Shown: in pieces, positions 21,101 through 51,013 of the stretch
Position numbering within the stretch: position 1 is the stretch's first letter
Layout: each line of letters starts with the position of its first letter
Assembly (NCBI RefSeq): GCF_024347435.1
Contig: NZ_AP025480.1
Span: forward strand, 2,542,001 to 2,606,000
Length of the DNA stretch: 64,000 bases
DNA from: Vibrio cyclitrophicus
GTDB taxonomy: Bacteria > Pseudomonadota > Gammaproteobacteria > Enterobacterales > Vibrionaceae
Direction of reading: 5' to 3'
Made by a program: the position numbers and the translations under genes
Notes under the pieces: model-generated
Told to the model about the DNA's origin: nothing
Database searches by the model: none
The model's input: only the letters and a program-made list of their open reading frames with translations

Positions 21101-21195
21101 ATACTTATTGAAATATAATAAAGCTTGTTTATAGTCGAAATCGCTCTAAACATTCGCTTGCACAAAAGTGTGATAAAGATCTAATCTATAGCCAT

Positions 21196-21269
21196 CAGGT
21201 GATGGGGTTCCACCTAAGCTTTTGCTTCAACCGCCCGTTCTTTCGAGCAGTGCTAATGACTCCTACAGA
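21196..21269 (+). ncRNA. Fluoride riboswitch-like aptamer (crcB motif)
   Basis: The element opens with AGGTGATGGGGTTCCACCT, a hairpin holding GATGG and GTTC. It continues with AACCGC and ends with GCTAATGACTCCTACAGA. This is the layout of the fluoride (crcB) aptamer as I remember it from the Thermotoga petrophila and Pseudomonas syringae examples. The pseudoknot strand GGGGT (21203-21207) can pair with ACTCC (21259-21263) using one G-U pair. The stem GCCCGTTC can pair with GAGC-A-GTGC with one mismatch and one bulge. A small AAGC-TTTT-GCTT hairpin sits in the joining region, an extra compared with those examples. It lies about 200 bases before a NifU-like gene. Confidence 0.75.
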
Positions 21270-21466
21270 ATCGAAAACAGGTAATACTGTTGGACGTATC
21301 GCTACTCCTCCATTTTGAAATGGACTTAGTCTATCAAGACCAAGCTTCATGACACCTTTGGATTATCGATACTCAAGATCTGTAGTGAATTAGCCGCACC
21401 TCTTCCAACACGTCCTGTTTTCTCAACGCCCTAGGTCTTAAATGGCTCTATCAATGAGAAAACATT
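21270..21466 (+). promoter_or_regulatory. Long leader / expression platform after the aptamer
   Basis: This 197-base leader has local hairpins: AACAG-N6-CTGTT, CCATTT-TG-AAATGG (21310-21323) and CTTAGTC-N6-GACCAAG (21325-21344). GAAAACAGG at 21273-21281 is fully complementary to CCTGTTTTC at 21414-21422. GGACGT at 21292-21297 is complementary to ACGTCC at 21410-21415. The two long-range pairings compete for the same CC. No T-run follows, so control by translation or Rho is more likely than an intrinsic terminator. Confidence 0.5.
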
Positions 21467-22159
21467 ATGCACTACTCTTCAGAAATTCAATCAATGTGCC
21501 CTATTCAAAGGGGTGATCTTCACACTTCAGCTCCAATTCCAGTTGAAGGCGCCATGGTTAGCCCAAAAGATGTCATCGCTATTTCTGGCTTAAGCCATGG
21601 CGTAGGCACTTGTGCACCACAACAAGGTGCAGCCAAACTGACGCTCAACGTAAAAAACGGCATCATCGAAGAAGCACTAATCGAAACGATTGGTTGTTCA
21701 GGCATGACTCAATCAGCCGCGATGGCAGCCGAAATCCTCACAGGAAGAACCATTCTTGAGGCCCTGAATACTGACTTAGTGTGTGACGCGATTAACGTAG
21801 CCATGCGCGAAATCTTTCTGCAATTTGTTTACGGTCGAACTCAATCTGCATTCTCTGAAGGCGGCCTAGAAATTGGCGCGGCATTAGAAGACCTAGGTCA
21901 AACACAACGTAGTCAAGTAGGTACTAGCTATTCAACTTCAGCGAAAGGCGTTCGTTACCTAGAGCTAGCCGAAGGTTACGTGACCAAGCTTGCACTTGAT
22001 GACCATAGCGAAGTAATTGGCTACGAATATCTCAACCTCGGCAAAATGATGAAGGCGATGAATCAAGGTATGTCAGCCAATGAAGCAGCAGACCTTGCTA
22101 TGGGAACCTACGGTCGCTTCGATGAAGCTGTAACCACCATTAATCCACGCCAACAATAA
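21467..22159 (+). CDS. NifU-like iron-sulfur scaffold protein
   Basis: This 230-residue protein contains a NifU/IscU N-terminal-type scaffold domain (about residues 35-130). Cys49 in GVGTCAPQQG and Cys77 in IETIGCSGMTQSAA match two of the three cluster-ligand positions of IscU. The third, normally a Cys further on, is not obvious; Cys106 in LVCDAIN is off position. The C-terminal half is not assigned. It is followed after 24 bases by the GGGtGRT gene, so they form an operon. The leader carries a fluoride-type aptamer. Its partner enzyme is unknown; it is not a standard Isc or Suf gene. Confidence 0.75.
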   Translation: MHYSSEIQSMCPIQRGDLHTSAPIPVEGAMVSPKDVIAISGLSHGVGTCAPQQGAAKLTLNVKNGIIEEALIETIGCSGMTQSAAMAAEILTGRTILEALNTDLVCDAINVAMREIFLQFVYGRTQSAFSEGGLEIGAALEDLGQTQRSQVGTSYSTSAKGVRYLELAEGYVTKLALDDHSEVIGYEYLNLGKMMKAMNQGMSANEAADLAMGTYGRFDEAVTTINPRQQ

Positions 22160-22183: not shown

Positions 22184-23173
22184 ATGATGAACACTCAATT
22201 TAATGAATCAGTAACTCGCGTATTGGCAGAAATGAACTTCGACTCTTTAGAGCAAGCGAACCAATACTGTAAAGCCCACAACGTTGATCCAAAAGCCATG
22301 GTGATGGACACCCAACCTATTGCTTTTGAAAGCGCTGCCGATGCTTATATCCTTGGTTCAGCACTAGCTCTATTCCGCAAAGCAAGCAACGCTGAACAAG
22401 CTGCGAATATCATTGGTGAAGGCCTTCAAGCATTCACCAAACCTGGCAGCGTTGCTGAGCAACGCCAAGTGGGGATCGGCCACGGTGCGCTAGCTGCGCG
22501 TCTTCTAAATGAAGAAAGCCACTGTTTTGCTTTCCTTGCGGGCCATGAATCTTTTGCTGCTGCAGAAGGTGCGATTAAAATTGCACTCAACGTCAACAAA
22601 TCACGTCACAACCCATTAAAGGTAATACTCAATGGTCTAGGTAAAGATGCGGCTTACTTAATTTCTCGCATCAATGGTTTTACCTACGTGCGCACTCAAT
22701 ACGATTACCAAACGGGTGAGCTTGTTGAAACAGAACGTCGCCGCTTCTCACAAGGCCCTCGCGGAGAGATCTTGTGTTACGGCGCTGATGATGTACGTGA
22801 AGGCGTGGCAATCATGCACAGAGAAGAAGTAGATGTAAGTATTACAGGTAACTCAACTAACCCAACGCGCTTCCAACACCCTGTTGCAGGTATCTACAAA
22901 GCAGAGCGTACTCGCCAAGGTTTACCTTACTTCTCAGTTGCTTCAGGCGGCGGTACAGGTCGAACATTACACCCAGATAACGTGGCAGCAGGCCCTGCGT
23001 CTTACGGCATGACAGATACCATGGGCAGAATGCACGCTGACGCTCAGTTCGCTGGTAGCTCTTCTGTTCCGGCTCACGTGGCAATGATGGGCTTCATCGG
23101 TATGGGTAACAACCCAATGGTAGGCGCGACAGTCGCTCTCGCGGTTGCTGTTAGTGAAGCTCAAAACGCCTAA
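22184..23173 (+). CDS. GGGtGRT family protein, function unknown
   Basis: This 329-residue protein contains the motif GGGTGRT at residues 255-261, which names its family. It also has HGALAARLLNEESHCFAFLAGHESFAAAEGA and SRHNPLKVILNGLGKDAAYLI segments rich in His, Gly and small residues, suggesting an enzyme. No signal peptide or transmembrane helix is convincing. The ribosome site AGAGGA precedes ATG 22184; a second ATG follows at 22187. It is cotranscribed with the NifU-like scaffold, suggesting it may need an Fe-S cluster. Cys29, Cys114 and Cys198 are the only obvious thiols. Its reaction is unknown. Confidence 0.8.
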   Translation: MMNTQFNESVTRVLAEMNFDSLEQANQYCKAHNVDPKAMVMDTQPIAFESAADAYILGSALALFRKASNAEQAANIIGEGLQAFTKPGSVAEQRQVGIGHGALAARLLNEESHCFAFLAGHESFAAAEGAIKIALNVNKSRHNPLKVILNGLGKDAAYLISRINGFTYVRTQYDYQTGELVETERRRFSQGPRGEILCYGADDVREGVAIMHREEVDVSITGNSTNPTRFQHPVAGIYKAERTRQGLPYFSVASGGGTGRTLHPDNVAAGPASYGMTDTMGRMHADAQFAGSSSVPAHVAMMGFIGMGNNPMVGATVALAVAVSEAQNA

Positions 23174-48715: not shown

Positions 48716-48958
48716 TATTGGGTTTCCTTTATGTCGTCAGAATGTAGGTTGTCAAAACAATAAAATAATATTGTATTATTATATGTGATCGAGATTAAAT
48801 ATTGAAAATTGATGGCCTATTACGGTGCCAGAAAAAATAAAAAATGAGACTTACACCAGATACTCCCTATCGATTGACTAACCAATTCAACAGATCCGAC
48901 GCACTTTATGACAGACACATCGAGTAGGGTGAGGCGTTACCGCCTCATCCCTCTCACA

Positions 48959-48989
48959 GAACCGTACGTACGGACCTCGTATACGGCTC
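48959..48989 (-). ncRNA. Group II intron domain V
   Basis: In the sense strand GAGCCGTA pairs with TACGGTTC through an extended stem, with the catalytic AGC triad near the start. The RT stop codon (TGA) overlaps its first bases, as is usual for group IIC. Domain VI follows, with a bulged A near CTACTCGAT. Confidence 0.75.
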
Positions 48990-50271
48990 ATGCACACTTC
49001 CATTCAGCATATTGGCTGAACACATACCCTGTCCTTATTGTCCCAAGATTTACCAATCCTTGGTCATTAAACCATTGATTTGGCATCGCATAGCTTGATA
49101 GTGGACTCGCTGCACTGACCCAACTTGTCATTGAGATATGCTGGAACGGCGGCTTATACCCTAACTGTTTTAACTTTCGATGTAAGCGTTGAGGCTTCTT
49201 CCAAAGTTTCAACTGGATACTACGCAGTCTTCTTCGTAGCCATCCTGCTAGTCTTGAGAACTCCCTGCTGCTATTGGTGATCCTGAAGTATTGGCTGAAC
49301 CCTCTTAACACTGGGTTTAGATCTTTTATGACTTGCTCAAGTGGCTTACCGCACCCTCGCTTCGTCATTCGCTTTAACTTGCTTTTGAACACTTTCAGTT
49401 TTTTAGTTTGAATGCGGGTAAATTGACTCCCGATTTCTACACCTAAAAACTTCACGCCATCACTGCTGTGCGCTATATGTGATTTCGTCTGGTTCACTGT
49501 GAGTTTAAGCTCTCCTTCTAAGATCTTCGTCGCTTGTGCAAGGGCATTCTCTGCCCCTGCCTTGCTACGACAGAAGATGAGTATGTCATCCGCATAACGA
49601 ACGATCCTATGGCCGCGCTTTCGCATTTCCTGATCGAACGCATCAAGGTAGATATTGGCTATCAAAGGACTGATAACACCACCTTGTGGACTTCCTAGCT
49701 CTGTCTCCTGCCAACTACCGTCTATCATCACCCCACTTTTTAGAAACTGTTTTATCAGCTCTAATACACTGCTATCTGTGACTCGTTTTCTGATGCTTTT
49801 GATAATCAACTCGTGGTCGAGTTTGTCAAAGCACTTCGACAAGTCCATATCTACAACGTGTTGTAACCCGTAACGCCGGATGAACATCGTGGATTTGTTG
49901 ATTGCATCGTGACAGCTTCGATTCGGCCTATACCCAAAACTTGATGGGTGAAATTGCTCTTCGAAGATGGGGGTGAGGATATCGTTGAGCGCTTGTTGGA
50001 CAACTCTATCCCTAACTGTTGGGATCCCGAGCAATCGCACCCCTCCGTCTTCTTTGGGTATCTCTACCCGTTTGACTGGCTGAGGTTTGTATTGCTTGGT
50101 TTTAAGTTCAGAGAGGAGTTGATCGAGGTTATCACTCAGATTTTCGGCGTAGTTGCTCAGGCTCTGCTCATCTATTCCAGCCGCGCCTTTCGCTTTCTTT
50201 ACCTTTTTAAACCCTTTATACAGCCTCTCTTTGTTGAGTAGATGACCATATAAGCTGTAATAAACTCGCAC
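48988..50271 (-). CDS. Group II intron reverse transcriptase/maturase (LtrA-type)
   Basis: This 427-residue protein carries the fingers-palm RT domain (about residues 25-290). It includes the RT0/RT motif FGYRPNRSCHDAI, DMDLSKCFDKLDH, GSPQGGVISPLIANIYL and YADD at 226-229. The maturase (X) domain follows (residues about 300-400). No HNH endonuclease is seen, fitting class C introns. The start is GTG with AAGGAG 6 bases upstream (GTG CGA GTT TAT TAC). The catalytic Asp residues are intact, so the protein looks functional. Confidence 0.93.
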   Translation of the reverse strand: MRVYYSLYGHLLNKERLYKGFKKVKKAKGAAGIDEQSLSNYAENLSDNLDQLLSELKTKQYKPQPVKRVEIPKEDGGVRLLGIPTVRDRVVQQALNDILTPIFEEQFHPSSFGYRPNRSCHDAINKSTMFIRRYGLQHVVDMDLSKCFDKLDHELIIKSIRKRVTDSSVLELIKQFLKSGVMIDGSWQETELGSPQGGVISPLIANIYLDAFDQEMRKRGHRIVRYADDILIFCRSKAGAENALAQATKILEGELKLTVNQTKSHIAHSSDGVKFLGVEIGSQFTRIQTKKLKVFKSKLKRMTKRGCGKPLEQVIKDLNPVLRGFSQYFRITNSSREFSRLAGWLRRRLRSIQLKLWKKPQRLHRKLKQLGYKPPFQHISMTSWVSAASPLSSYAMPNQWFNDQGLVNLGTIRTGYVFSQYAEWKCA

Positions 50272-51013
50272 TTTCTCTCCTTGGATTGTGTGCTGTGTGG
50301 GGACAGGTGTTTCATCTTCAGCGTGGGTGTTATTTCTCTCTGCTGTTCAGCCTTCTAGCTCAGTGGCAATTTACTGAAGTGAGTCAGAGTTACTCCCCTA
50401 TACGGTTTCTTAGCGCAGTATCTTGCTTCCACAATCAACCAAACTAGGAATACCCCGATAGCGATTCGGTTTGGGTATCACTGAAAAAAAAAAAACATCT
50501 GTTCATCACAGACTTAAAGTGTACTTCCTCCCTTCGCAACACTGAGTGCTTTTGGCATTTCAGTGCTCCATCAGACTTGATGCTGCTGGTCAGCTAAGTT
50601 TTCTCCTCCACACCATTACTGGGCTTCTCTGGCTTAGCCTTACTCACTACTACGGATTCATCTGCCACCTCGCACCAACACACCTCTTAGCTTTCGCTTC
50701 GAGTTTGTGCTTCCAGACTGTCTGGATGTGGTGTCAGGCTTCCCCAGTTACTGCACTGGCTCCCTGTTAACAATGCCACCCTCAAGCACAGCATAGGTCT
50801 GACTGAGTATAGGGCTTCGCGCTATTTCGGACGCTTACCCACCTATACTGCCGAAGCAGGTTTACTTGCGTTGTGTACTGCTAACTTCCTATCGCTTCCT
50901 TCAGACCCTGCCGTTAGCCAACAACGCCCTTGCGATTCGGATTATCTTCCCCTCAGTCGGGGTGATTCAGGTTTCTTTCAACCTGACGGGTTTGCCAGCT
51001 TCGCTGGGCAAAC

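Follow-up and report, generated by a model that had tools for sequence, protein, structure and literature searches.

Fluoride riboswitches have previously provided a route to fluoride exporters and to fluoride-sensitive targets, and their aptamer class is already known. Genes associated with the class are reportedly listed in Baker 2012. In its accessible part, PMC11139923 describes as riboswitch-associated exporters, Na/H antiporters, pyrophosphatase, haloacid-dehalogenase-like proteins, enolase and formate hydrogen lyase. With respect to mechanism, examples from P. syringae and B. pseudomallei serve as translational controls in the accessible part of PMC13273304, so control of translation by the fluoride class is likewise already known. 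Here, we describe a fluoride-class aptamer in Vibrio cyclitrophicus that precedes a different kind of operon, namely a NifU-like gene followed by a gene of the GGGtGRT family. The literature we searched yielded no report of this link, which may nevertheless stand in the gene tables of Baker 2012. NifU is absent from the accessible main text of both PMC11139923 and PMC2864571, and fluoride appears in no title among the literature found for GGGtGRT.

A fluoride-class aptamer upstream of a NifU-like/GGGtGRT gene pair

Scanning the whole 64-kb stretch of V. cyclitrophicus DNA under study (the window; all features below lie on its plus strand unless noted) with cmscan returned a match to RF01734 at 21189-21272, which spans the full model (positions 1-64) and scores 48.2 bits (E = 2.8e-10), well clear of the gathering score of 34 bits. 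The original prediction had read this leader as a fluoride-class riboswitch on a NifU-like/GGGtGRT operon. The aptamer pieces it listed are present in the given order, with GGTGATGGGGTTCCACC at 21198-21214, the claimed GGGGT/ACTCC pseudoknot has its strands at 21204-21208 and 21259-21263, and the significant covariance-model match together with the Pfam matches of both genes bears the assignment out. Alignment, fold and covariation delineate the P1 helix GGUG/CACC and its loop (21198-21214; 21198-21201 with 21211-21214), covariation and fold the pseudoknot strands GGGGU and ACUCC, and the alignment P3 (21233-21253; 21233-21236 with 21250-21253), one pair of which is non-standard in the window. 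An extra hairpin, AAGC-UUUU-GCUU (21216-21227; alignment and fold), is located between P1 and P3; other leaders, such as L061 and L220, carry inserts of differing sequence at this site. We conclude that 21189-21272 belongs to the fluoride riboswitch class, from which its putative ligand follows, and that the regulatory RNA probably runs on as far as the start codon (21467).

This is the sole RF01734 match above the gathering score in the V. cyclitrophicus genome. A 24.9-bit match, below that score and on the strand opposite a 151-aa frame that we took for an Lrp-like regulator, was rejected as a second riboswitch and looks like a chance hit, and the whole-genome search gave no RF01734 match near the crcB gene located elsewhere in the genome. 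The window also contains two group II intron matches, RF00029 and RF02001, at 48919-48991 and 50755-50924 (minus strand).

As claimed at the outset, the genes behind the aptamer are an Fe-S scaffold-like and a GGGtGRT gene rather than the usual exporters. The first (21467-22159) encodes a 230-aa IscU/NifU-like protein with a borderline match to PF01592 (NifU_N, 22.1 bits against a cut-off of 22), and the second (22184-23173) a 329-aa protein that matches PF14057 over nearly its full length (561 bits).

Covariation of the aptamer was assessed on 29 sequences, 28 of them distinct, with 25 taken from operons with the pair and four from exporter genes. Of 362 cells, 93.1% were paired, compared to 36-58% in slid versions, and the covariation score of 0.400 exceeded both shuffled (0.121) and slid (≤0.117) versions, none of 500 shuffles reaching it. 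Pairing amounted to 98% of cells in P1, where both Persicobacter rows are off by one column in the alignment, to 98% in the pseudoknot and to 82% in P3. In the pseudoknot, two of the five pairs change on both sides. Two of five whole-structure measures did not rise above shuffles: both-sided changes, found in 6 of 13 aptamer pairs (a number reached in 34 of 500 shuffles), and further pair types (9 versus 10.3 in shuffles, with 497 of 500 reaching this number). For the most part, Vibrio-type, Persicobacter and exporter rows have GGGGU/ACUCC or GGAGU/ACUCC as their pseudoknot and rows of the other clade GAUGU/ACGUC; the Clostridia genome G626, judged by eye and outside the covariation count, has GAAGU/ACUUC. 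Homologous leaders keep the pairing, pseudoknot included, with compensatory changes, contrary to the loss of pairing that would have spoken against the prediction.

We then charted the gene link in a sample of 197 genomes of the family. RF01734 was matched at E ≤ 0.001 in 115 of these and above the gathering score in 110, PF14057 in 85. By coordinate matching, 84 of the 85 GGGtGRT genes are preceded on their own strand by an aptamer at a distance of 812-1026 nt, each aptamer scoring above the gathering score; a script recovered a NifU-like frame in between for 83 of the 84, and the remaining locus has a matching start. The 130 RF01734 places in total comprise these 84 and 46 unlinked ones, eight of the latter below the gathering score. 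Of the other 38, 36 stand before a frame bearing the CLC-F-type motif, one before CrcB and one before a Na/H exchanger; Pfam bore out the exchanger (PF00999; locus L283 in genome G005), the CrcB and two of the CLC genes. Twelve genomes carry both linked and exporter aptamers according to our own reading of the match lists. The single exception, genome G011, contains both genes of the pair; a search for a relict switch with filters off gave nothing convincing (best 7.7 bits).

Among named relatives, those closest to the GGGtGRT protein come from Vibrio records, one of which (L072) also has the aptamer. None of the 368 other genomes in the class sample showed PF14057 above cut-off, and a weak match in the gammaproteobacterium G423 (18.5 bits, below cut-off) was set aside because it overlaps, on the opposite strand, a long frame read as a reductase. 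Two sub-threshold RF01734 matches, of 33.7 bits (L288 in G164) and 27.3 bits (L289 in G134), are positioned ~0.55 kb before similar frames of 127-129 aa.

A proposed expression platform in the Vibrio-type leader

In the predicted unconstrained fold of the window leader, the 3' tail of the aptamer, CUACAGA (strand 1, 21263-21269), pairs with UCUGUAG (strand 1', 21379-21385), and the Shine-Dalgarno strand UGAGAAAAC (21455-21463), which precedes the AUG at 21467, pairs with the anti-Shine-Dalgarno strand GUUUUCUCA (21417-21425). In the predicted ON fold, the antisequestor GAAAACAGG (strand 2, 21273-21281) pairs with CCUGUUUUC (strand 2', 21414-21422), which overlaps the anti-Shine-Dalgarno strand, and a nested helix joins GUUGGA (strand 3, 21289-21294) to UCCAAC (strand 3', 21404-21409). 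The computed energies—-50.4 kcal/mol for the OFF fold with the tail free and, with the tail blocked, -46.4 kcal/mol for the antisequestor fold versus -47.8 kcal/mol for the sequestered one—place the states close together, such that the tail shifts the equilibrium between them, though in the window not as far as parity. There, the Shine-Dalgarno helix retains an advantage of 1.4 kcal/mol over the ON fold, and switching would need a contribution from kinetics. Among the other leaders this difference takes either sign, the comparison covering the 60 of 84 leaders with sufficiently long helices.

Folding all 84 linked leaders with and without an enforced aptamer (P1 enforced, pseudoknot strands blocked, P3 left unenforced; 12 shuffles per leader) gave a mean unpaired probability of the Shine-Dalgarno zone of 0.18 when free and 0.32 with the aptamer, compared to 0.40 and 0.40 in shuffles. 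The 55 Vibrio-type leaders moved from 0.14 to 0.36 (shuffles 0.47 and 0.47), with a rise in 52 of them, by more than 0.1 in 35, and with start-region sequestration above shuffles in 54. The 29 leaders of the other type showed no ON/OFF effect (0.26 free, 0.25 enforced; shuffles 0.28 and 0.26).

The longest tail, antisequestor and Shine-Dalgarno helices averaged 8.41, 9.67 and 9.20 bp over 49 non-redundant leaders, compared to 6.41, 7.02 and 7.33 bp in shuffles and 6.83, 8.10 and 8.19 bp when strands were swapped between leaders; taken singly, 19, 26 and 20 of the 49 leaders, respectively, beat 95% of their own shuffles. Taking CTGTTTTC or a close variant as the anchor, we scored the extension of helix 2 over the next five positions in each of the 55 Vibrio-type leaders. 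Uncorrected for kinship, 81 of 130 cells (26 distinct combinations) were paired versus 57.3 after permutation, with none of 5000 permutations as high, while the Shine-Dalgarno side reached 55 of 68 cells (17 combinations) versus 48.3, again uncorrected for kinship (68 of 5000 as high). The window's own helix-2 combination pairs at two of the five extension positions.

These analyses lead us to a new proposal, namely that tail, antisequestor and Shine-Dalgarno strand compete in the Vibrio-type leader, which predicts translation that is ON with fluoride; for this type, the regulatory logic is well supported in silico. The aptamer would bind fluoride together with Mg2+, as its class suggests. Without fluoride, folds and covariation imply that UCUGUAG captures the tail, which would open the pseudoknot and free CCUGUUUUCUCA (21414-21425) to pair with the Shine-Dalgarno strand, thereby, we propose, switching translation off. 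With fluoride, the aptamer would hold the tail, strand 2 would take strand 2', and the ribosome site would open. Overall, we think it probable that this two-gene operon belongs to the fluoride response and is switched on by a fluoride-responsive riboswitch.

The same aptamer might instead control the operon differently, through Rho-dependent termination, RNA decay or co-transcriptional kinetics, with the three-strand leader only partly meaningful. This would fit the absence of the predicted switch from other-type leaders, the frequency with which single leaders do no better than shuffles, the terminator-like hairpin with a U run seen by eye in G626, and the terminator platforms of the class modelled in the accessible part of PMC13273304. 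The extensions of the strand 2/2' helix nevertheless covary beyond permutation, sequestration exceeds shuffles in all but one Vibrio-type leader, and the window leader displays, by eye, no hairpin with a long U run 3' of the aptamer. We therefore regard this alternative as unlikely, if a serious one.

The gene link beyond the family

GGGtGRT genes occur in ten plasmid records, from Vibrio, Persicobacter, Collinsella, Parabacteroides, Bacteroides, Phocaeicola and Subdoligranulum; the loci of seven of the ten records were examined for the aptamer, and Bacteroidota were covered through plasmid records only. In Rfam searches, Vibrio sp. THAF191d and Persicobacter JZB09 both showed an aptamer ahead of the pair; the plasmid stretches of Collinsella, Parabacteroides, Phocaeicola and Subdoligranulum showed none. 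In P. psychrovividus, the order is aptamer, CLC gene, pair. The CLC gene (PF00654 Voltage_CLC, 244 bits) has a visible GNNLI-type motif, which we take to be the mark of CLC-F exporters, and would on this basis be of the CLC-F type. The best 80 contig loci listed (77 plus three), gut loci mostly from Coriobacteriia and some with short upstream stretches, contained no aptamer (model R1), and RF01734 exceeded the cut-off in one of 20 whole genomes searched behind them.

In a sample of 245 Clostridia genomes (the class of genome G565), 117 had PF14057 and 51 an RF01734 match, 43 of these above cut-off. Comparing the lists by eye, we found aptamer and pair linked in one of the 117 GGGtGRT-bearing genomes, G626, where they are 813 nt apart, and no link in the other 116, some of which contig breaks may hide. 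In the G626 locus (L328, 999-6195), an aptamer (38.5 bits) is followed by the NifU-like and GGGtGRT genes; beyond these come a fragment of crcB, another aptamer that at 33.2 bits misses the threshold of 34, and two MutS-like frames. In the accessible part of PMC2864571, mutS is among the genes named for the fluoride riboswitch RNA. The association of aptamer and pair is thus real, near-constant in the sampled family and present in two other phyla; looking for the same leader elsewhere, as the original prediction had suggested, bore fruit at 84 of 85 loci in the family and in two further phyla.

In a phylogeny of 100 GGGtGRT proteins, where Persicobacter and G626 occupy long branches, the riboswitch label has to change three times, and well-supported branches force two of these changes. 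We interpret the forced changes as the switch having been lost in G011 and as G626 having a state of its own, and so the tree alone is no proof of independent gains. Given the many anaerobes with the gene and no switch, the basic role of the pair is hardly fluoride-specific and probably metabolic.

The distribution also bears on the idea that the switch is inherited baggage, standing before the pair since an ancestor, with no fluoride role for the pair and with fluoride stress merely tracking low pH or anaerobic life. The sampled anaerobes, which mostly have the gene without the switch, agree with this idea, as does a tree that needs only three label changes, one possibly the G011 loss. Yet the link recurs in Persicobacter and in one Clostridia genome, other fluoride-type genes adjoin it in P. 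psychrovividus and G626, and it is kept at 84 of 85 loci across two deeply split protein groups while the aptamer continues to change in a compensatory manner. We consider it improbable that ancestry by itself explains the arrangement and retain the fluoride-responsive operon as our preferred reading.

The protein pair and its relation to known systems

The NifU-like protein falls below the TIGR01999 equivalog cut-off (22.6 versus 192.4 bits), and the V. cyclitrophicus genome has a proper iscU elsewhere (229 bits), so the gene encodes neither the only nor the housekeeping scaffold. Nineteen aligned family members share three invariant cysteines (C49, C77 and C106). We take the IscU signature to be three cluster-ligand cysteines plus an aspartate in set spacing. 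The alignment to IscU covers the core only, including the conserved GC motif; of the ligand set, this motif alone aligns, with the third ligand beyond the aligned stretch and the first IscU cluster cysteine unmatched. In 27 aligned GGGtGRT proteins, long invariant stretches surround GGGTGRTLHPDN, and the GGGTGR motif is invariant. A search for a solved relative by sequence returned none (best E 0.19), and three GGGtGRT proteins searched against Pfam showed no further families. The predicted GGGtGRT structure (pLDDT 80.3, pTM 0.81) consists of N-terminal helices followed by an alpha/beta domain, with the GGGTGR region (256-276) below pLDDT 50; the NifU-like model is poor (pLDDT 67.5, pTM 0.56).

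Several observations relate to the integrity of the GGGtGRT gene. Additional short matches to only its last ~28 codons accompany the main gene in G752, G712, G761, G602, G801, G601, G698 and G057, and in some viral contigs the gene, or just its terminal part, lies at the edge of the contig (L153-L158; H13-H16); the 3' end looks like an attachment site for integrating elements. In G013 (L242) the gene is split over two frames and in G057 it is 3'-shortened, in both cases behind an aptamer above the gathering score.

Of 93 loci around GGGtGRT, some of them truncated, 77 yielded a NifU-like frame in a motif search, and Collinsella and Parabacteroides annotation places the two genes adjoining or one small gene apart. 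According to the accessible part of PMC10434189, Bacteroides thetaiotaomicron BT0173-0174, annotated as both families, are down 11- to 12.8-fold under iron deficiency, and a proteomic table from Clostridium pasteurianum that deals with iron supply has both names with neighbouring locus tags (PMC5395762, accessible part). The accessible literature found under the name GGGtGRT gives no function. We infer that the pair is an iron-dependent enzyme or cofactor pair. In the weakest step of the proposed mechanism, the two proteins would act jointly as an iron-dependent enzyme or as a cofactor-supply pair and stand in for, or restore, a metalloenzyme step blocked by fluoride, complementing fluoride export; fluoride control would fit a need for more of the pair, or for a substitute, at high fluoride. 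The suggestion of the original prediction that the pair may protect or replace a fluoride-sensitive enzyme draws on general knowledge and on the company the genes keep.

We judge it an even call that the pair constitutes an unrecognised, iron-dependent fluoride-response module that keeps a blocked step going rather than exporting the ion, is the commonest riboswitch target in the sampled family and, in its Vibrio type, is controlled by a covarying three-strand translational switch. Aptamer, covariation, gene link, Vibrio-type platform and the iron link of BT0173-0174 count in favor of the fluoride-responsive operon; the flat other-type leaders, the energy gap in the window, weak single leaders, the two aptamer measures level with shuffles, switchless anaerobes and the partial IscU signature count against it.

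That the pair handles organofluorine compounds, as a fluoride-releasing enzyme or its cofactor supplier with the switch sensing the product, appears very unlikely to us: induction by a product would likewise give an ON switch, but Pfam matched no dehalogenase family, and the pair is frequent in gut anaerobes, in which we know of no general organofluorine metabolism. Although the motif is short, a chance RF01734 match can practically be dismissed and was rejected on linkage and covariation, given an E value of 2.8e-10 over the window, the link at 84 of 85 loci and the covarying helices.

Above the gathering score, 84 aptamers in the 197 genomes stand at the pair versus 37 at CLC-F-type and CrcB genes together. 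A widespread family with no assigned function, present in 117 of 245 Clostridia genomes, thereby gains a testable role and a ready assay, and the leaders form a diverse natural collection of probable translational fluoride switches for comparison with the transcriptional systems that have been modelled to date.

Among known systems, the fluoride riboswitch (crcB motif, RF01734) shares aptamer architecture, conserved core and pseudoknot with the window leader and in the same family also precedes CLC-F-type and CrcB genes. Unlike the known examples, the window aptamer bears an extra hairpin and precedes the NifU-like/GGGtGRT pair, which is absent from the genes named in the accessible parts of PMC2864571 and PMC11139923, and the long leader of the Vibrio type probably acts on translation through strand exchange. 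In the transcriptional platform of PMC13273304, as described in its accessible part, and by prediction in the window leader too, the ligand decides between the aptamer and a rival pairing farther downstream, whereas in the window leader the predicted competition ends at the Shine-Dalgarno strand. The NifU-like protein has the aligned core and GC motif in common with the IscU/NifU scaffold family (PF01592, TIGR01999), yet is 230 aa long compared to a 124-position model. With PF14057, finally, the GGGtGRT protein shares a nearly full-length match, the difference being that the window gene lies under a fluoride riboswitch.
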